NCBI GenBank assembly: GCA_030693515.1
Contig: JAUYAK010000113.1
Coordinates: forward strand, 1 to 64,000
Direction of reading: 5' to 3'
From: Opitutaceae bacterium
GTDB taxonomy: Bacteria > Verrucomicrobiota > Verrucomicrobiia > Opitutales > Opitutaceae
Length of the DNA stretch: 64,000 bases
The notes below the pieces were generated by a model. It was given only the letters and a program-made list of their open reading frames with translations, did not search any database and was not told the origin of the DNA. Made by a program: the position numbers and the translations under genes. Shown here piece by piece: positions 8,821 through 55,613 of the stretch. Each line of letters opens with the position of its first letter. Positions within the stretch are counted from its first letter, which is position 1.

Positions 8821-9591
8821 ATGAACGCCGACGAATACCTGAAACTCGCCGAGGTCGAGGACCGCATGTGGTATTTCCGCTCGCTGCACCGCCATGTCCT
8901 GCGGGCGCTCGTTCCCGGCTTGCCGCAGGAGGCCGCGGTGCTCGACGCCGGCTGCGGGACGGGCGGCCTGATCCTGCGGTTGCGGGAGGCCCAGCCCGGC
9001 TGGCGGTTCAGCGGCATCGACTTCATGCCGCTCGCCTGTGAGCTCGCGCTGAAACGCTGCGGCCCGGAGGTGGATGTGCGTGTCGCCTCGATCACGGAGC
9101 TGCCGTTTGCGGATGCGAGCTTCGATGCGGTGGTGTCGGCGGATGTCGTCTGCCAGGTGGAAAACCCCGAGGTCGCGGCGCGGGAATTTTTCCGCGTGCT
9201 CAAGCCGGGCGGCCTCGTGGTGATCAACGTGCCGGCCTACATGTGGATGTGGTCGTATCACGACGATTCCTGTCACACTCAGCACCGTTACACCCGGCCC
9301 GAAATCGCCGCGCTGCTGGCCGGGGCGGGATTCCGCGACGCGCGGACCACGCATTGGAACGCGCTGCCCTTTCCCGTGGTGTGGGCGAAGCGGAAGCTGT
9401 TTCGCACGGAGCGCGACACGAGCGATGTGAAGGAATACTCCGCCCTCGTGCAGGCACCGTTCCGCGCCTTGATGGCGATCGAGCACGCGTGGCGGCGGCT
9501 GGGGGGCAACTGGGCTTGGGGCACCTCGGTTTTCGCGTCGGCGCGAAAACCGGGACCAAAAGACCAGAGACCAAGGGACCAAAAGACTTGA
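8821..9591 (+). CDS. Class I SAM-dependent methyltransferase (Methyltransf_11-like)
   Basis: VLDAGCGTGGLILRLREAQP motif; ATG at 8821; C-terminus runs into the GGTC-type repeat arm. Confidence 0.85.
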   Translation: MNADEYLKLAEVEDRMWYFRSLHRHVLRALVPGLPQEAAVLDAGCGTGGLILRLREAQPGWRFSGIDFMPLACELALKRCGPEVDVRVASITELPFADASFDAVVSADVVCQVENPEVAAREFFRVLKPGGLVVINVPAYMWMWSYHDDSCHTQHRYTRPEIAALLAGAGFRDARTTHWNALPFPVVWAKRKLFRTERDTSDVKEYSALVQAPFRALMAIEHAWRRLGGNWAWGTSVFASARKPGPKDQRPRDQKT

Positions 9592-9664
9592 AACGCGATC
9601 GGGGCATTAGGCCGCGGGGCTTGTGGTCCCTTGGTCTTTTGGTCCTTAGTCCCTTGGTCCTTTT
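9552..9664. repeat. Inverted pair of degenerate ~8-bp repeat arms (unit ~GGTCCCTT/GGTCTTTT)
   Basis: Left arm gggaccaaaagaccagagaccaagggaccaaaagac (9552-9587); right arm ggtcccttggtcttttggtccttagtcccttggtcctttt (9625-9664). Confidence 0.85.
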
Positions 9665-9667
9665 CCG

Positions 9668-11857
9668 ATGATCCACTTTGCCGTCGCCTTCGCGCTGCTG
9701 CTGCACGTGGCGCTGTGGGGCGCGGGCGCGGCGCTGCTGGCGATGCCGCGGCCCTGGCGGCGGCTGTGGCCGGTGCTGATCGTGCCGTGCGGGCTGGCAC
9801 TGCAATCGGCCGTCGTGTGGGCCGGCGCCCACGCGGGGCTGCGCGGCACCGACGCCTACGCGTGGGCCAGCGCGGCGCTGCCGGTGATGCTGCTCGCGCT
9901 AGCCCTGCGCCGGCACGGCGCGCGGCGGGCGTGGACGGACCTCAGCCGCTTCGGGGTCGTGTGGGCGATCATGGCGGGCGCCCTCGTGCTGCTCACGCTG
10001 CCCTTTGCGATCGCGTCGCGCGGCCTCACGACGATTTCGCTCGGGAGCTGCGATGCGGCGGACTACGCGGCCGGGGCGCGCGTGCTGATGGAATTTGCCC
10101 GCGCGGATCGCGAGGGCTTCCTCGGCCTGACGGAGGTGGTCCGTGTCCACTCGGTGGACAACTTCTTCGACTACTGGATCCGGTTGAACCACTTCACGCC
10201 CGCGGCGCTGCTGGCGCTCAACGGCACGATCCTCGGTTGCGCGCCCCATGAGATCGTCTCGCTGCTGACGGCGGTGCTGCTCGCCGGCGCGGTGCCGGTG
10301 GCGTTTTGGGCGGCGCGCGCCGTGGTGGGCCACGATGATGTCGGCAGCCTCGTCCTAGCAGGACTCTTCGGGCTCAGCCCGATCCTCTGGTATGCGGTGG
10401 CGCACGTGGCGCCGGGGCAGTTGCTCGCGGCGCAGGCGGTCACGGTGCTCACGTGGGCGGGCGTCGCGCTCTGGCGCGGACGGCTCACGGTGCGGCGGGC
10501 GGTGCAATTCGCGCCGGTGCTCGCGGTGGGCTACTGGCTCGTGCTCGGCAGCTATAATTTTTTCCTACTCGTGTGCCTGGTGCCGGCCGTGGCCTACGCG
10601 GGCGGACTCGCGCTGTGGCGGCGCGCGTGGGGCCGGCTGGCCGGCTGGGCGCTGGCGATGATCGGGCCGCTTTGCGTCGCCGGGGTCTTCGCCTACGAGC
10701 GCGTGGCCGGGCTGGCGGAGCGCTTCTCGCTGCTGCGCGAGTATGATTTCGGCTGGCGCGTGCCGGCGTTGACCGCGGAGGGCTGGCTCGGCCTCGTGCA
10801 GGGCGGCGATCTCGCGGCGTGGGATTTTCTGGGACTGCGCTGGGTGCTGACGACGGTGATCGTGGGCCTGGTGGCGTGGGGGCTCGTGCGGGCGTGGGCG
10901 GCGCGCCCGCGCGTGGTGTGGACGGTGCTGGCGCTCACCGTGCCGGTGCTGGCGGCGTATTTGTGGCTGCAGGTGCGGGGCGCCGAGCGCGGCACCAACG
11001 CCAGCTACGACGCCTACAAACTCTTCGCGGTCTTCTTCCCGCTGCTGCTGCCGGCGCTGTGCCGGTGGATCGCGCTGCGGCGGAGCGGACGGCTCCTCGA
11101 GTGGCCGCTCGTCGTCGGCGCGGTCGCGGTCATCGGCGCGGGCAACCTGATCGCGTGCGGCATGTTCGTCTGGCAGCTGGCGCGTCCGCCGCTGCGCGTG
11201 GACAGCCCGCTGCGCGCGCTGCAAAAAATCGAGGCGATGCCCGACGTGAAGTCGGTAAACATGATCTTCGCCGAGTCCGACATGTGGTCGCGGCTGTGGG
11301 CGAACGCGTTTCTGCTGCGCAAGGAGCAGTTCTTCCTGACCCACACCTACGAAGGCCGGCGCAACACGCCACTGCGCGGGGACTGGGACCTCGAGGCGGG
11401 ATTGCTGGCGCTGCACTCAGCCGGCGGCGCGCGACGGGAAATTGCCCCGCGCTTCGCACTGGTGGACACGCGCACCGTGACGTTCGTGCGGGTGCAGCCC
11501 GGCACAGGCTGGCACGCCTTGGAGCGCGACGAATCCGGTGGGGCGTGGCAGTGGACCATGGGTGATGCGACGCTGCTCGTCGACAACCCGCAGGCGCATG
11601 CGCTTACGCTCACGTGCACACTCGACGGATGGAACCCCGCGCCGGGTGGTTTGACGCTGGGCCGCGAGGGCGAGGCGGCGCGGCCCGCGGTCAGGCTCGG
11701 CCGCGAACGGGAAAAAATCACGCTGCCTCCCGTCGTCGTGCCACCGGGCCGCTCGACGCTCGTGCTGCACAGCGACGCTCCGCTGACGACCGTCGCCGGT
11801 GATCCGAGGAAGTTCGGCGTGGCGGTCTTCCGGTTGCACGTCGAGGCAGCGCGATAA
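9668..11857 (+). CDS. Large multi-TM membrane protein with C-terminal beta-rich domain
   Basis: 729 aa hydrophobic ORF, ATG 3 nt after the right repeat arm. Confidence 0.8.
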   Translation: MIHFAVAFALLLHVALWGAGAALLAMPRPWRRLWPVLIVPCGLALQSAVVWAGAHAGLRGTDAYAWASAALPVMLLALALRRHGARRAWTDLSRFGVVWAIMAGALVLLTLPFAIASRGLTTISLGSCDAADYAAGARVLMEFARADREGFLGLTEVVRVHSVDNFFDYWIRLNHFTPAALLALNGTILGCAPHEIVSLLTAVLLAGAVPVAFWAARAVVGHDDVGSLVLAGLFGLSPILWYAVAHVAPGQLLAAQAVTVLTWAGVALWRGRLTVRRAVQFAPVLAVGYWLVLGSYNFFLLVCLVPAVAYAGGLALWRRAWGRLAGWALAMIGPLCVAGVFAYERVAGLAERFSLLREYDFGWRVPALTAEGWLGLVQGGDLAAWDFLGLRWVLTTVIVGLVAWGLVRAWAARPRVVWTVLALTVPVLAAYLWLQVRGAERGTNASYDAYKLFAVFFPLLLPALCRWIALRRSGRLLEWPLVVGAVAVIGAGNLIACGMFVWQLARPPLRVDSPLRALQKIEAMPDVKSVNMIFAESDMWSRLWANAFLLRKEQFFLTHTYEGRRNTPLRGDWDLEAGLLALHSAGGARREIAPRFALVDTRTVTFVRVQPGTGWHALERDESGGAWQWTMGDATLLVDNPQAHALTLTCTLDGWNPAPGGLTLGREGEAARPAVRLGREREKITLPPVVVPPGRSTLVLHSDAPLTTVAGDPRKFGVAVFRLHVEAAR

Positions 11858-12983: not shown

Positions 12984-13919
12984 ATGCCCCAATTTGCCCT
13001 CAGTTTCGTCATCCCACTTTACCATAGTGCCGAGTCGATCGGCGCGGTGGTGCGCGAGATCGAGGGCCTGACGATCCCCGGCGGCCATGAGATCGTGCTG
13101 GTGCATGATGGCAGCGGCGAGCCGACGAGCCGGGCGGCGCGTGAGCTGGTGCGCACCGCGCGGATTCCGATCACACTGGTCGAGCATGCGCGCAACTACG
13201 GCGAGCACAACGCGGTGCTCACCGGCTGGCGCCGGGCGCGCGGAGCGCACATCGTGAATCTCGACGACGACGGCCAGAATCCGCCGGCCGAGGCGGTGCG
13301 CCTCTGGCAGCACGCGGTGGCGGAGGGGCTCGACGTGGTGTTTGGCCATTACGACGAGAAGAAGCACTCGGCGTGGCGAAATTTTGGGAGCTGGTTCACC
13401 AACCGGATGACCGACTGGGCGCTCGACAAGCCCGCGGGCTTCTACCTCTCAAGCTTCCGGTGCGTGAGCGCGTTTGTGGCGCAGCAGGTCGTGGGCTATG
13501 CCGGACCCTATCCCTACATCGACGGCCTGCTGCTGCAGGTCACGCAGCGCATTGGCTCGATCGCGGTGCGGCACGAGGCGCGGGCCGCGGGGGCGAGCAC
13601 CTACACGCTGCGCCGGCTCGTGCGGCTGTGGCTGAGCGCGTGGATCAATTTCTCGGTGCTGCCGCTGCGGGCGGCGACGATGCTCGGTCTTGCCATCGCG
13701 GTAGTGGGGGTGGGCGCGCTGGGCTTGGTCGCCTGGCTCTGGTGGCACGATACCGGACCTGCGACCGGCTGGGGTTGGATTATGGCCGGGCTGTTGATTT
13801 TCTCCGGCACGCAACTGGTGATGCTCGGACTGATCGGCGAATACATCGGACGGATGTTTCTCGCCGTGAACCAGCGGCCGCAGTCCGTGGTGCGCGAGGA
13901 GATCCGCAGCGAGAAGTAG
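12984..13919 (+). CDS. Glycosyltransferase family 2 with two C-terminal TM helices (DPM1/ArnC-like)
   Basis: SFVIPLYHSAESIGAVV..; NLDDDGQNPP; C-terminal TM pair ending GEYIGRMFLAVNQRPQSV. Confidence 0.87.
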   Translation: MPQFALSFVIPLYHSAESIGAVVREIEGLTIPGGHEIVLVHDGSGEPTSRAARELVRTARIPITLVEHARNYGEHNAVLTGWRRARGAHIVNLDDDGQNPPAEAVRLWQHAVAEGLDVVFGHYDEKKHSAWRNFGSWFTNRMTDWALDKPAGFYLSSFRCVSAFVAQQVVGYAGPYPYIDGLLLQVTQRIGSIAVRHEARAAGASTYTLRRLVRLWLSAWINFSVLPLRAATMLGLAIAVVGVGALGLVAWLWWHDTGPATGWGWIMAGLLIFSGTQLVMLGLIGEYIGRMFLAVNQRPQSVVREEIRSEK

Positions 13920-13990
13920 GGCGGGCCTGTGACCCGCCTTTTCACGCGTTGAGTATTCGCTCCGAGGGCGGGTCACAGACCCGCCCTACT
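13915..13990. repeat. REP-like palindrome pair (BIME-like), family AGTAGGGCGGGTC-nnn-GACCCGCCCTACT
   Basis: agtagggcgggcctgtgacccgcc (13915-13938) and gggcgggtcacagacccgccctact (13966-13990); the stop codons of both convergent flanking genes lie in the arms. Confidence 0.85.
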
Positions 13991-14968
13991 GGCTGGCCCG
14001 AGCGTCCGCTCCCAGTGAGCGAATTCTCGCGCCAGGCCGGCCTCGACGGCGGCGATGGCGTCAGGTGGCGGCACGACGCGGACTCGGGTGAGAAACGCAA
14101 GGGCCCAGACGGCGCGCCGCCAGTCGGCGGCAGGGGGCTCGGGCAGGAGCGAGGCGAGGTAGTCGCGGCACCAAGTGCGAAAACCGTCGTCGGCGGCGGC
14201 GACAAGTTCGCGCCGCCAACGGCGGGCGAGGCGGAAAGAATTATGTTCGTCGCGCGCCTTGCGGCCGGGTGACGCACTCACGTGGTGGCGGACGACGCTG
14301 CGCACCGCGACGGCATTGATGCGGCCGGCCGCGGCGGCGCGGAAGCACAGGTCGATATCTTCGCCGCTGTTGAGGTAGCCCTCGTCGAAGCCGCCGAGGT
14401 GCCACCACAGCGCGCGCGAGACGAGCACGCACGCGCCGGTGACGGCGGGCGCGCGGCGCACGGGCCGGAGCAGGCGGGAAACGAAGCCGGGGCGTGCGCG
14501 GGCGTGAACGGGCTTGCCGCAGATATTCACCACCAGGCCGGTGTGATCTACGGCGCCCGTTTTGGCGTCGAGCTGGATGTTGCCGATGAGCCCGGCGCGT
14601 TCGCCCAGGGTGCGGTGGGCGGCGAGCATGCGTTCCAGCCAGCGGGGCAGGAGGATCAGATCGTTGTTGAGCAGGGCGAGGATTTCGCCGCGCGCCTCGG
14701 CCGCGCCGCGGTTGTTGGCGGCGGCGTAGCCGAGGTTGCGATCGTTGAGCACGACGCGGATGGCCGGATCATGGGCGAGGGTGGCGAGCCACGCGCGGGT
14801 GCCATCGGTGCTCCCGTCATCCACGAAGATGATCTCGTGCGTGAGGCCGGCGGGCAGGGTGGCGCGCAGGCTGGCGAGCATCGCCTGCGTCAGGGGCAGG
14901 CAGTTGAAGAGGGGAATGATGAAGCTGATCCGCACGGTCTGGGCGTCCCTTGCTAGACCGTTTGTCAT
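13973..14968 (-). CDS. Glycosyltransferase family 2 (rhamnosyltransferase-like)
   Basis: SFIIPLFNCLPLTQAML..IIFVDDGSTDGTRAWL; GNIQLDAKTGAVDHTGLVV..GGFDEGYLNSGEDIDLCFRA. Confidence 0.85.
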   Translation of the reverse strand: MTNGLARDAQTVRISFIIPLFNCLPLTQAMLASLRATLPAGLTHEIIFVDDGSTDGTRAWLATLAHDPAIRVVLNDRNLGYAAANNRGAAEARGEILALLNNDLILLPRWLERMLAAHRTLGERAGLIGNIQLDAKTGAVDHTGLVVNICGKPVHARARPGFVSRLLRPVRRAPAVTGACVLVSRALWWHLGGFDEGYLNSGEDIDLCFRAAAAGRINAVAVRSVVRHHVSASPGRKARDEHNSFRLARRWRRELVAAADDGFRTWCRDYLASLLPEPPAADWRRAVWALAFLTRVRVVPPPDAIAAVEAGLAREFAHWERTLGPASRAGL

Positions 14969-15060
14969 TCTGAGCGAAGCGAAGAATCCACCAGGAGAAA
15001 CGAGGCCGGATGGAGGAGGCGAGGATCCAAGTGGATTCTTCGCTTCGCGCAGAATGAAAA
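14961..15060. repeat. Inverted repeat of the TGTCATTCTGAGCGAAGCGAAGAATCCAC type
   Basis: tttgtcattctgagcgaagcgaagaatccac (14961-14991) and gtggattcttcgcttcgcgcagaatgaaaa (15031-15060). Confidence 0.88.
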
Positions 15061-15061
15061 A

Positions 15062-15967
15062 TCAGGGTTTTTCTTCGGCGATGCGCTTGAGGTAGGCGCC
15101 GTAGGAGGACTTGCCGAGCTTGGCGATGTTGGCCTCGAGGCCCGCGCGATCGATCCAGCCTTTGCGGAAGGCGATTTCCTCGAGGCAGGCGATTTTCAGG
15201 CCCTGGCGGTTCTCGATGACGGAGACAAACTGGCCGGCCTCGAGGAGCGAGTCATGCGTGCCGGTGTCGAGCCAAGCGGTGCCGCGGCCGAGCAGCTCGA
15301 CGTGGAGGTTGCCGGTTTCGAGGTAGAGCCGGTTGAGATCGGTGATTTCGAGTTCGCCGCGCTTGGAGGGCTTGAGGGTGCGCGAGCGGCGGACGACATC
15401 GGCGTCGTAGAAATAGATGCCGGGGATGGCGTAGTTGGACTTGGGCTGGGCGGGTTTTTCCTCGAGCGACAACACGCGTCCGTCCGACGCGAACTCCACG
15501 ACGCCGTAGCTTTTGGGATCGGCGACGTGGTAGCCGAAAATCGTCGCGCCCGAGGTGCGCTCACCGGCGCGTTCGAGGGAGCGCACGAAGTCGTGCCCGT
15601 AGAAAAGATTGTCACCGAGGACGAGGGCGGCGGGCTCGTCCTTGAGGAAACCGATGTCGCCGGCGATGTGGAAAGCCTGCGCAAGGCCGTCGGGGCTGGG
15701 TTGCTCGGCATAGGAGAGCTTGAGGCCGAGGTTGGCACCGTCGCCGAGGAGTTTCTTGAAGAGCGGCAGATCAGTGGGCGTGGAGATGACGAGGATCTCG
15801 CGGATGCCAGCGAGCATCAGGACCGACAGCGGGTAGTAGACCATCGGTTTGTCGTAAACCGGCATGAGCTGCTTGCTCACCGCGATCGTCAGGGGAAAGA
15901 GGCGCGTGCCGGATCCCCCCGCCAGAATAATACCGCGGCGGTGAGCAGGTGATGGGTGATGGGTCAT
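15062..15967 (-). CDS. rfbA: Glucose-1-phosphate thymidylyltransferase
   Basis: RRGIILAGGSGTRLFPLTIAVSKQLMPVYDKPMVYYPLSVLMLAGIREILVIST; start ATG at 15967 lies within the repeat arm (MTHHPSPAH). Confidence 0.95.
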   Translation of the reverse strand: MTHHPSPAHRRGIILAGGSGTRLFPLTIAVSKQLMPVYDKPMVYYPLSVLMLAGIREILVISTPTDLPLFKKLLGDGANLGLKLSYAEQPSPDGLAQAFHIAGDIGFLKDEPAALVLGDNLFYGHDFVRSLERAGERTSGATIFGYHVADPKSYGVVEFASDGRVLSLEEKPAQPKSNYAIPGIYFYDADVVRRSRTLKPSKRGELEITDLNRLYLETGNLHVELLGRGTAWLDTGTHDSLLEAGQFVSVIENRQGLKIACLEEIAFRKGWIDRAGLEANIAKLGKSSYGAYLKRIAEEKP

Positions 15968-15980
15968 GGGTGATGGGTGG
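15942..15980. repeat. Degenerate ~7-bp repeat arm (unit ~GATGGGT), left arm flanking the four-helix-bundle gene
   Basis: gagcaggtgatgggtgatgggtcatgggtgatgggtgg. Confidence 0.8.
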
Positions 15981-16335
15981 TTGAGCGGGCCTTGATGAGG
16001 GCACCGAGCATGCGGCCGACTTCGGCGCATTTTACTTCCAAGGAGGTGCAGGATTCCGCGCTGAGTGAACCTACTTCTCTGGCGATTTCGAGTTGGGTGC
16101 GGAGTTCGGCGAGTGAGCCTTTGGCGATGTAGAGAAAGCGAACCGAGTCCTTGTTGGTATCCCGCTCGTCGCCTTCGGCAATATTGGAAGGCACGCTGAC
16201 GGCGGCGCGGCGCATCTGGTCGCGCAATCCGAAGTCGCGGGCGATCTGACCGACTTCGGTCGATCGATACACGGCGACGGCCAGTTCCTTGGCCAACTGC
16301 CAGACGCGGAGTTCGCGGAAACCGTCTTTACCCAT
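15964..16335 (-). CDS. Four helix bundle protein (S23/IVP family, Avd-like fold)
   Basis: FRELRVWQLAKELAVAVYRST..RDFGLRDQMRRAAVSVPSNIAEGDERDTNKDSVRFLYIAKGSLAELRTQLEIA is the canonical family pattern; stop overlaps the rfbA start (ATGA). Confidence 0.93.
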   Translation of the reverse strand: MGKDGFRELRVWQLAKELAVAVYRSTEVGQIARDFGLRDQMRRAAVSVPSNIAEGDERDTNKDSVRFLYIAKGSLAELRTQLEIAREVGSLSAESCTSLEVKCAEVGRMLGALIKARSTTHHP

Positions 16336-16362
16336 AACCCATGGCCTATGACCAATTACCCC
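16329..16362. repeat. Degenerate repeat arm, right arm in inverted orientation (ACCCAT units)
   Basis: tacccataacccatggcctatgaccaattacccc; reverse complement contains CATGGGTTATGGGTA as in the left arm. Confidence 0.75.
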
Positions 16363-26027: not shown

Positions 26028-27824
26028 TCAATTCGGCATCTCGTAAATCTCGATGAGCGCCACGCCCAGCGTGCCGGTTTCGCTGTTAAATCCGGCCGCC
26101 TCGGCTGTGTAGTTGCCGGGCTGGAGCGTAAGCAGCATCACGGAGTCGAGTCCGCCGAACTCCGTCGTGTCGCGCAGCTCCTGAAGGGGGAAGGCGCCGA
26201 CGCGCCGGGCGGATTCTCTCAGCCCGGGCATGGCGCCAAAGGGCGTGTCCCAGTCGTCGTTGTAGCGGATGATAGTGCCAGCCGCGTTGCGCAGAGTAAG
26301 CTCGGGATCCTGCAGGGCGCCCGGCAAGCCGAAGCCCCGTAGCGTGGGGCCGATGGCGCGGATGAGAAAGGTGCGCGGGCCCGGCCCACGCACCACGAGC
26401 CCGGCGATCAGGCTCTGATCCGCTGTGCCGACCGACCCGCGCGTCGACAGGTTGCCCAGCCGGCTTGCACCGGGGGCACTTGGGTCGAGATCGGCGTCGT
26501 AAACCTCGACGAGGGCCACGCCGGTTGTGTTGTTGGCGCCGGTGACGAGAGCCGTGTAGCTGCCGGGTGCGAGCGAGGTGAGCAGCGCGGCATCGCTGCT
26601 GCCGGCGGGGAGGGCAAACGCACCCACGCGCCCCGCACCGGCGGCCACCGCGGCCGCCGCGGGTTGATTGCTCCAATCGCCATTGTGATCGATCGGCCGA
26701 CTTGTGCCGTCGAACAGAGTCAGCTCCGGATCCGGCAGCGTGCCGGAGACGCCAAACGCGCTGAGCGTGCCGCCGCCGACCGCGCGGATGAGCACCCATT
26801 TCGGCGTCGTGCCACTCACGACGAAGCCGCAGATCATCGCGTTGGCGCCGGTGCCGACGCGACCGCGGGTCGAGAGGTTGGCCAGGCGCGTTTCAGGTGT
26901 CACGGTGGCCGGTCGCACTGTGAGTTCCGCCGGATCGCTCAATACGGCACCGGTCGCGGTGTAGGCGAGCACTTGGTAGCTGCCGGCATCCGCGCGCTGC
27001 GCACTGCCCAGCGCAAACACGGGGCCATCCTCCCGTTCGAGCGGCTCGGGCTGGCCCCCCGGACGCGTGATCATCCATACGTAGCGCAACGGCCCGCCGG
27101 TGATCGCCCGAGCGGCCACGCTGAAGCTGGTTTGTTCGGCGACGCTTCGCACGAGACTGACAGGCTGCGTGGTGATCGTGACGGCTCCGTTCGGGAAATA
27201 CAGTGAACGGATACCGGCGATGTCGTCGGCCTGCAGAGTTTCGACGTTGCCGGGCGTGCTGTTCATGATCGCGACGACGTTCTGCGGGGGGAGCGCCTCG
27301 TCGGGATGATTGAGGCCGAGCGCGTGGCCAAACTCGTGCAGCAGCACGCGCCGCAGATCCAGGACGGAATCGGCGAGTGTGGGGGCGCCGCGCAGCGGGC
27401 CCCGGTAGGAGTCCCATTTGAGCGAGGAGTTTACGATCACGTCGGTCTCGTTGAGGGTCGCGCCTTGGCTGTTGTAGAGCGTGATGGCGAGGGTGCGGTT
27501 CGTCAGGGCGAGGCCGTAGGCGTCGGTGCTGAAAAAAACGTTGTTCACGCGATCGTCCTTGGATGAGGCCGTAGAGGTCGGGGCTATGACGGTGGCGAAG
27601 CGCACGCGGCCGAGCTGGAGGTTCCAATCGGCCGCGGCCGCAGCAGCGACCAGGTTCCACGAACTCGCCCCGTCGCTGAGGGGCTGGGGTGGTTCGCCAA
27701 GCTGCAGCTGCAGCGTGACTGTGCCACCGAGTCGGAAGCCTCCGATGCGTTCGAAGGCGACGGCCACCGCCGAAGAGGCCGCGACGAGGACGAAGGCGGC
27801 TATTACTCTAGCGCAGGATCGCAT
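26028..27824 (-). CDS. Secreted matrixin-type metalloprotease with Ig-like domain and two LSTRGxVGT repeats
   Basis: LLHEFGHALGLNHPDEALPPQNVVAIMNS = HExxHxxGxxH plus Met-turn; RLANLSTRGRVGTG.. and RLGNLSTRGSVGTA.. repeats. Confidence 0.85.
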   Translation of the reverse strand: MRSCARVIAAFVLVAASSAVAVAFERIGGFRLGGTVTLQLQLGEPPQPLSDGASSWNLVAAAAAADWNLQLGRVRFATVIAPTSTASSKDDRVNNVFFSTDAYGLALTNRTLAITLYNSQGATLNETDVIVNSSLKWDSYRGPLRGAPTLADSVLDLRRVLLHEFGHALGLNHPDEALPPQNVVAIMNSTPGNVETLQADDIAGIRSLYFPNGAVTITTQPVSLVRSVAEQTSFSVAARAITGGPLRYVWMITRPGGQPEPLEREDGPVFALGSAQRADAGSYQVLAYTATGAVLSDPAELTVRPATVTPETRLANLSTRGRVGTGANAMICGFVVSGTTPKWVLIRAVGGGTLSAFGVSGTLPDPELTLFDGTSRPIDHNGDWSNQPAAAAVAAGAGRVGAFALPAGSSDAALLTSLAPGSYTALVTGANNTTGVALVEVYDADLDPSAPGASRLGNLSTRGSVGTADQSLIAGLVVRGPGPRTFLIRAIGPTLRGFGLPGALQDPELTLRNAAGTIIRYNDDWDTPFGAMPGLRESARRVGAFPLQELRDTTEFGGLDSVMLLTLQPGNYTAEAAGFNSETGTLGVALIEIYEMPN

Positions 27825-54147: not shown

Positions 54148-54220
54148 AGTAGGGCGGGTCATTGACCCGCCCTCGGATGAGGGAGGGTGGTCGAAGGGCG
54201 GGTCGAAGACCCGCCCTACT
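54148..54220. repeat. REP-like palindrome pair, same family as 13915-13990
   Basis: agtagggcgggtcattgacccgccctc (from 54148) and agggcgggtcgaagacccgccctact (to 54220). Confidence 0.88.
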
Positions 54221-54867: not shown

Positions 54868-55587
54868 TCAGGCAGTCGGGGGCGGCCCGGCGCGGAGCAG
54901 GGCGTCGAGTTCGTTGAGGCCCTCGTGGGAGCCGATCTCGTAGAAGCGCTGCGGCATTTCGTAGCCGGCGAGCTGGCCGCGCGCGCAGAGCTGCGTCTGC
55001 ACCGCCGCGAGATCGACGACGGCATCGCGGGGGAAGCCATTGAAGGCCGCGGCGCGAAACACGCCCAAGCCGTAGTCGATGTGGCGCATGGCCGGGGTGC
55101 GGTGCTTTTTGTCGTAGGCTTTGATCTCTCCGCCCGCGAATTCGACGTTGCTCGTGTCGTAGCGGCCGTGGTTCTCGAAGACGGTCATCAGGCCGAGCTT
55201 CCCGCTCCGCTGGAAAAAATCGCCGACCGCGCGGTAGTCGATCGGCAGGTAGCTGTCACCGTAGAGCACGTAGAACGCGTCGCCGAGCTTGGGCAGGGCA
55301 GCGATGAGCGCGCCGCCGGTGCCGAGGAGTTTGGGGCCGTCGAACGCGTAGTCGATCTGCACGCCCCACTTGGAGCCGTCGCCGTAGAGCTCGACGATCT
55401 TCTCGCCGAGATAGCCGACGCAAAGGACGATCTTGGTGAGGCCGTTTTTCTTCAGCAGGCGGAGCTGATGGGAGAAAAAGGGTTCGCCCGCGACCTCGAC
55501 GAGGAGCTTCGGGATTTTCTCCGTGATTGGCCGGAGACGCGTGGCCATGCCGCCTGCTAGCAATGCCACTGGAAAATCGGAAAACAT
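54868..55587 (-). CDS. hddC: Nucleotidyltransferase, heptose-1-phosphate guanylyltransferase-like
   Basis: MFSDFPVALLAGGMATRLRPITEKIPKLLVEVAGEPFFSHQLRLLKKNGLTKIVLCVGYLG; start codon lies in the repeat arm. Confidence 0.8.
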   Translation of the reverse strand: MFSDFPVALLAGGMATRLRPITEKIPKLLVEVAGEPFFSHQLRLLKKNGLTKIVLCVGYLGEKIVELYGDGSKWGVQIDYAFDGPKLLGTGGALIAALPKLGDAFYVLYGDSYLPIDYRAVGDFFQRSGKLGLMTVFENHGRYDTSNVEFAGGEIKAYDKKHRTPAMRHIDYGLGVFRAAAFNGFPRDAVVDLAAVQTQLCARGQLAGYEMPQRFYEIGSHEGLNELDALLRAGPPPTA

Positions 55588-55612
55588 GGAAAAGCGGGAA
55601 AGCGGGAAACAG
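55568..55612. repeat. Degenerate ~8-bp repeat arm (GGAAAATC/GGGAAAGC), left arm flanking the second four-helix-bundle gene
   Basis: ctggaaaatcggaaaacatggaaaagcgggaaagcgggaaacag. Confidence 0.8.
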
Positions 55613-55613
55613 T

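Follow-up and report, generated by a model that had tools for sequence, protein, structure and literature searches.

The analysed window, a stretch of 64,000 nucleotides from the genome of an Opitutaceae bacterium, carries on its plus strand a gene for a SAM-dependent methyltransferase (positions 8821–9591) and, downstream of it, a gene for a membrane protein (9668–11857, plus strand), in an order that is kept in relatives. The junction of these genes is occupied by two inverted degenerate (GGTCYYTT)n arrays, which make up a hairpin of about 110 bases. The left arm (9552–9587, GGGACCAAAAGACCAGAGACCAAGGGACCAAAAGAC, array score 57) consists of GACCAARR units, that is, of the GGTC dialect on the minus strand, while the right arm (9617–9663, plus strand, score 69) is built of GGTCYYTT units and terminates in ...GGTCCCTTGGTCTTTTGGTCCTTAGTCCCTTGGTCCTTT, with its last base at 9663. 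The loop between them (9588–9616, no strand assigned) is unique and contains the stop codon now serving the methyltransferase; its length is 29–37 bp, depending on the chosen start of the degenerate right arm, and a search for an ORF within it found none. The 12 terminal codons of the methyltransferase (9553–9588), encoding GPKDQRPRDQKT, and its TGA stop (9589–9591) derive from the insert, and the ATG of the downstream gene (9668) is located 4 bp past the end of the right arm. The first-pass annotation of this DNA had described inverted degenerate arrays of the GGTC type at 9552–9664, with an ORF-less loop of about 37 bp, that form both the methyltransferase C-terminus and the entire intergenic gap. 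This description holds, except that the second arm, said to end 3 bp before the next ATG, does end just before it but at a distance of 2–4 bp rather than exactly 3.

A search with the pattern GGTCYYTTGGTCYYTTGGTC, allowing up to two mismatches, matched the 6.65 Mb genome at 17 sites, and its reversed control at none; the genome-wide GGTC counts given below were likewise derived from pattern searches. The fold predicted for the 126-nt RNA of the site has an energy of −56.9 kcal/mol (z −4.2), and none of 200 shuffled sequences was as stable. Both results indicate that the array pattern is not a product of chance. Comparison of the hairpin with Rfam revealed no match at the gathering score, and the sub-threshold microRNA matches were rejected as chance matches to a hairpin. 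A pattern scan of named genomes yielded 8 stretches; the Opitutaceae and Verrucomicrobia records proved to be real arrays, and the matches in Sulfobacillus, Streptantibioticus and Desulfovibrio were discarded as short pairs with a low array score.

The methyltransferase gene is present in nearly all congeners, and the same gene follows it wherever the gap is readable. According to the first-pass annotation, a tail peptide conserved in orthologues would point to ordinary coding sequence; the DQRPRDQKT tail is absent in all 19 methyltransferase orthologues, one of them 92% identical. In the two closest relatives, G018 and G016, the methyltransferase ends in ...ARKP followed by the stop codon, with 3–4 bp to the next start. 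The empty site reads GCGCGGAAGCCCTAG-CTG-ATGATCCC in G018 (in short form, AAGCCCTAG-CTG-ATG) and GCGCGCAAGCCCTAG-CGTG-ATGATCCAC in G016 (AAGCCCTAG-CGTG-ATG), and the occupied site in this genome reads GCGCGAAAACCG-(~110 bp)-CGATGATCCAC. The tail-less orthologues and the short gaps of the two closest relatives show that about 110 bp were inserted between the last methyltransferase codon and the next ATG in this lineage. The ancestral stop codon was lost upon insertion, and the copy is younger than the split from the closest relative. No target-site duplication was evident at this site or at other copies when they were compared with the empty sites of relatives. In another congener (G001, locus L093), the same post-methyltransferase gap holds a pair of a different dialect (CACGAAAAACAC type), apparently an independent event.

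The genome-wide search for inverted GGTC pairs suggested by the first-pass annotation revealed six of them in this genome: the one described above, a second at 36868–36974 of the window, and single pairs on contigs C6, C87, C94 and C101. The second pair of the window (left arm 36868–36908, minus strand; right arm 36927–36974, plus strand) lies in-frame in another methyltransferase gene (CDS 36245–37246, minus strand), where it encodes the peptide RDQKTKRPKDQD...SLGPLAPRPLV and adds about 30 residues; these residues (about 97–128) are missing in most orthologues. Peptides similar to the tail encoded at 9553–9588 occur in unrelated proteins wherever an array has been inserted. The copy on C6 lies between pstB and phoU. 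G018, whose PhoU is 99% identical, lacks it, as do G016, G025 and G001; the same gap contains other arrays in G014, G019 and G002. The copy on C101 is matched by one at the equivalent position in G018, from which it has already diverged in both arms and loop. At least three of the GGTC copies in this genome postdate the split from G018.

The copy on C94 (about 26400–26511, locus L015 of this genome, G000) belongs to a set of GGTC hairpins followed by T-runs in the murA gap, the others being L275, L286, L289 and L290 in G018, G017, G003 and G019; other species have a conserved terminator-like hairpin there, and domestication of the GGTC hairpin as a terminator is possible. At five further loci (L276, L279–L281 and L283), spread over several species, one-armed TCTCAAC/TCTCAGC arrays stand directly before the murA start, with no left arm within 190 bp. 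In three congeners, a GGTC pair is found in-frame at the same loop of an orthologous membrane protein (L104, L127 and L149), which could be either one old insertion or recurrent insertions. Overall, dozens of unrelated loci share the GGTC dialect, which is hardly found outside a single genus. The congener G019 (9.1 Mb) has 90 + 90 GGTC array matches, far above the other congeners, and none of them fits the exact short-loop pair pattern. One contig (G011:C245) terminates in a near-perfect (GTGGTCC)n array (L090); arrays of this kind may break assemblies and be under-counted.

The orientation and placement of the pairs are strongly constrained. Among 42 adjacent opposite-strand array pairs, mostly from congeners, 41 have the (−,+) polarity with GACC on the left and GGTC on the right, a number that includes some ORF-bearing and some orthologous copies; the sole (+,−) pair falls between two separate elements. 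A few of the pairs are located in-frame inside genes, and nearly all are flush between genes. Because gene calls were heuristic (codon scores), the placement counts are approximate: for about 28 of the 32 intergenic GGTC copies with callable neighbours the implied gap before insertion is at most 25 bp, and 24 of the 32 lie between co-directional genes. Only about 2% of the intergenic slots available for insertion fall in gaps of this size, and co-directional genes flank 70% of all gaps anyway; the bias is therefore for tight gene junctions and not for direction. Wider gaps are also used, as in the case of murA. The arms within one copy matched no better than arms across copies (p 0.29), so that exact hairpin pairing is under no visible selection in GGTC pairs, and it is the dialect that is kept. 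Exact arm-to-arm matching was therefore rejected as a property of the ORF-less copies, although the arms of the PF05635 loci described below do change together.

Five PF05635 genes are present in the genome, two of them in the window, and each is enclosed by inverted 7–8 bp arrays of its own dialect. The element at 15938–16362 (minus strand), which encodes a PF05635 (TIGR02436 four-helix-bundle) protein and provides a reference for the layout, has GGGTGAT-dialect rather than GGTC arrays on both sides, and the one at 55570–56011 (minus strand) has arrays of the GGAAAATC/GGAAAAGC dialect on both sides. In a set of 89 PF05635 loci, taken mostly from the genus, family and order, inverted flanking arrays (z ≥ 4) accompany 78 genes, compared to 3 of 153 control genes treated alike. 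With orthologues at the same host locus excluded, the best match of an arm was its own partner at 69 of these 78 loci. Where the same host locus was occupied across species, the arms matched better within species than across at 15 of 18 loci (p 0.0075), the mean arm score being 41 for the own partner, 30 for the same locus in other species and 17 for other loci. Therefore, both arms of a PF05635 locus drift together. Within the phylum as a whole, inverted arrays surround PF05635 genes at 22 of 26 loci, and the same is true of all seven annotated cyanobacterial plasmid loci. Two of the latter, on pANA02 of Anabaena sp. 90 (L329) and on a plasmid of Picosynechococcus sp. PCC 7003 (L335), are four-helix-bundle genes with inverted flanks inside CRISPR-cas operons, located at the cas6-cas4 and cas10-cmr3 junctions, respectively.

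The PF05635 ORF belongs to TIGR02436, with related solved structures 2gsc and 2rld, and its dN/dS of 0.05–0.21 indicates purifying selection; to our knowledge, no catalytic activity has been assigned to PF05635 proteins. Two candidate generalisations were rejected. A purine-rich inward-reading arm is seen at 67 of the 78 loci, but at one host locus (L189, L190, L192) it is reversed. Nor does the protein sequence dictate the dialect across unrelated loci (rho 0.04, with 37 of 500 permutations as high), and the closest cross-locus protein relatives do share a dialect.

The extent of the element is best seen in the TAGCGAG dialect, where a locus L033 and a group of loci L220/L043/L045 encode nearly the same protein between arrays of one dialect at unrelated host loci. 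Their DNA is about 80% identical from the outermost to the outermost array unit, and the similarity stops there, which defines the element as the arrays plus the ORF; comparison of these copies thus shows that, in this related dialect, what changes place is the whole stretch from one outer array to the other. The GGTC dialect encloses a complete PF05635 ORF in G012 (L047) and, in G017, an ORF that breaks off after ANIVEGLAR while its GGTC arms are intact (L146), its closest protein being that of L047; the remaining GGTC copies are mostly ORF-less, hereafter solos. Since GGTC arrays of congeners enclose both a complete and a truncated PF05635 gene, the solos are best read as ORF-less members of the same family. 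The pair at 9552–9663, having no ORF between its arms, would be a solo relative and not a full member of the PF05635 array elements, with which it shares two inverted one-dialect 7–8 bp arrays, empty sites in relatives, and the dialect of an ORF-bearing element of congeners. The first-pass annotation had noticed the resemblance of its layout to four-helix-bundle loci, which is supported: the pair is an ORF-less insertion of this layout, and in congeners its dialect flanks the PF05635 genes of L047 and L146. The annotation also suggested a non-autonomous or empty version; emptiness through internal deletion agrees with L146, but the loops of the GGTC solos are unique to each copy and no recognisable PF05635 remnant was found in them. 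Across 27 genomes, the GGTC count tracks the PF05635 count (rho 0.52, p 0.006); the correlation weakens once genome size is taken into account (partial r 0.31, p 0.12).

Taken together, these data suggest that the feature at 9552–9663 probably belongs, as a solo without an ORF, to a dispersed family of small insertions whose ends are inverted degenerate 7–8 bp arrays of one dialect and whose full members resemble the intervening sequences (IVSs) of 23S rRNA and carry a PF05635 gene. One could hypothesise that the PF05635 protein of the full members recognises the hairpin or the arrays and aids movement, and that solos arise by internal deletion or gene-less copying and are moved in trans. The inserted element is probably co-transcribed, and its RNA would fold into a long hairpin, which RNase III might cut or the cell might simply tolerate, as is the case for rRNA IVSs; under this proposal, a position between stop and start codons or in an in-frame linker would do little harm. 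Three observations count against a strict model of mobilisation by PF05635 proteins. Similarity of these proteins barely predicts the dialect across unrelated loci, the two arms of a GGTC copy match no better than arms of different copies, and recent GGTC solos exist here with no protein of the GGTC type in the genome: none of its five PF05635 loci has the GGTC dialect, at an estimated completeness of 100%. Further points against the preferred reading are the dependence of the GGTC–PF05635 correlation on genome size, the absence of an evident target-site duplication, and the lack of a known catalytic activity of PF05635 proteins. Given the young age of the copy, the cognate protein could have been lost, could have another dialect, or may not be the mobilising factor.

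If a Y1/RAYT transposase mobilised the inverted-repeat hairpins and the four-helix-bundle genes had nothing to do with them, the pairs would be REPIN-like. REPINs are non-autonomous dispersed hairpins thought to be moved in trans, and the paired inverted repeats, variable spacer, extragenic position, hairpin formation and dispersal are indeed reminiscent of them (PMC3116915). Y1_Tnp genes are also common, being present in 23 of 27 congeners, with seven in this genome. However, the GGTC arms are degenerate octamer arrays and not a fixed REP palindrome, the same array layout encloses PF05635 genes, and GGTC counts show no correlation with Y1 transposase counts (rho 0.25, p 0.2; −0.06 after accounting for PF05635). 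G022 and G024 contain 12–13 Y1 genes and no GGTC matches, while G008 has one Y1 gene and 37 GGTC matches. We therefore regard a REPIN-like origin as unlikely.

An equally improbable scenario dispenses with a mobile unit: the pairs would form in place in operon gaps, growing from short seeds at which the polymerase slips and switches template. For heptamer repeats, slippage has been considered before (PMC4692102), and local growth would agree with the fast evolution of arms and loops, the concerted dialect shifts of arms at PF05635 loci, and the different dialects held by the murA, pstB-phoU and methyltransferase gaps in different species. It is difficult to reconcile with the recurrence of one nearly genus-confined dialect at dozens of unrelated loci, with the fixed polarity of the pairs, and with the ORF-bearing element found complete at two loci, where homology extends no further than the arrays. 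Arrays already inserted may nevertheless be reshaped by slippage.

It is even less probable that the pairs are primarily functional intergenic hairpins, that is, terminators or mRNA-processing sites under selection, whatever their origin. The strength of the predicted RNA hairpin and the murA gaps of five genomes, where GGTC hairpins with T-runs occupy the place of a conserved terminator-like one, would agree with such a role. But the site at 9552–9663 gives only 2 weak terminator-like matches versus 0.5 expected, relatives have an empty gap there, and in-frame copies inside genes cannot be terminators. On visual inspection, a GC-rich stem directly followed by a T-run stands out in the murA copies alone. 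Finally, although the left arm is open and encodes a peptide, its interpretation as a conserved low-complexity C-terminus is ruled out by the absence of the tail in all 19 orthologues and by the similar peptides at array insertions in unrelated proteins.

Short ORF-less IVSs are known in the 23S rRNA of Salmonella. As in the case of 23S rRNA IVSs with an S23p/23S_rRNA_IVP ORF in Leptospira and Coxiella, the family preferred here combines a terminal inverted-repeat stem, full members of about 430 nt with a PF05635 ORF, and ORF-less short versions. In Coxiella, the IVS measures 428 nt and has inverted repeats at its termini; its S23p ORF is immediately preceded by tandem heptamers (GACAGAT), and RNase III excises the element. 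IVSs have been proposed to derive from mobile elements (PMC4990558); PF05635 ORFs have also been found in rRNA insertions of CPR bacteria (PMC11270868). Unlike IVSs in rRNA, the present elements are located at protein-gene junctions, as is the one between the methyltransferase and membrane protein genes, or in-frame, and they occur in numerous copies and dialects.

Degenerate 7-bp arrays between genes are likewise known in Xanthomonas and cyanobacteria, and the GGTC pairs share the convergent layout of those in Xanthomonas. Xanthomonas genomes contain 70–75 convergent inverted GGGAATC pairs each, mostly intergenic between co-directional genes, with mostly conserved positions, length and sequence varying between species, and no association with mobile elements found (PMC4692102). 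Cyanobacterial STRRs are hairpin-forming 7-bp arrays between genes, of unknown function (PMC2670836). In contrast to these heptamers, the GGTC unit is 8 bp long, and those papers report no link to a four-helix-bundle gene. TAACTGA arrays of Beggiatoaceae, of unknown origin, most often end 1 nt before start codons (PMC4679880). Rickettsia palindromic elements insert in-frame into protein genes (PMC10969869), as does the pair at 36868–36974, but, in distinction from them and from MITEs, the array elements have no conserved interior, no target-site duplication, and arrays instead of fixed inverted repeats as ends. Avd of diversity-generating retroelements (DGRs) shows a weak profile relation to PF05635 proteins; unlike in Avd systems, the loci that were read showed no DGR components.

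The component systems, namely 23S rRNA IVSs and the Xanthomonas and cyanobacterial heptamer arrays, are thus known separately, and their joining is the interesting part. A search of the open-access literature found no paper linking the arrays with the four-helix-bundle gene, and the role of the S23/23S_rRNA_IVP four-helix bundle and the origin of intergenic heptamer arrays have been treated as two separate puzzles. The location of the PF05635 gene inside the arrays makes it testable whether the arrays are the element ends, the protein its conserved cargo or mobility factor, and the solos ORF-less copies. A broader proposal, which we advance tentatively and with less confidence than the assignment of the solo itself, is that array-bounded four-helix-bundle elements constitute a widespread mobile class, in which a small protein with no known catalysis helps to disperse inverted degenerate 7–8 bp arrays into stop-start junctions, the dialect drifts in each lineage, and solos are non-autonomous; 23S rRNA IVSs, Xanthomonas GGGAATC pairs and cyanobacterial STRRs could then be the same thing. 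Array insertion also shows one way in which protein ends and linkers acquire short repetitive peptides.

Other dispersed repeats are present in the window as well. A palindrome at 14961–15061 (TTTGTCATTCTGAGCGAAGCGAAGAATCCACC...) apparently represents a different dispersed inverted repeat, and the AGTAGGGCGGG...CCCGCCCTACT palindromes at 13915–13990 and 54148–54220 have GTAG-type ends and resemble REPs; the genome contains seven genes for Y1 transposases.
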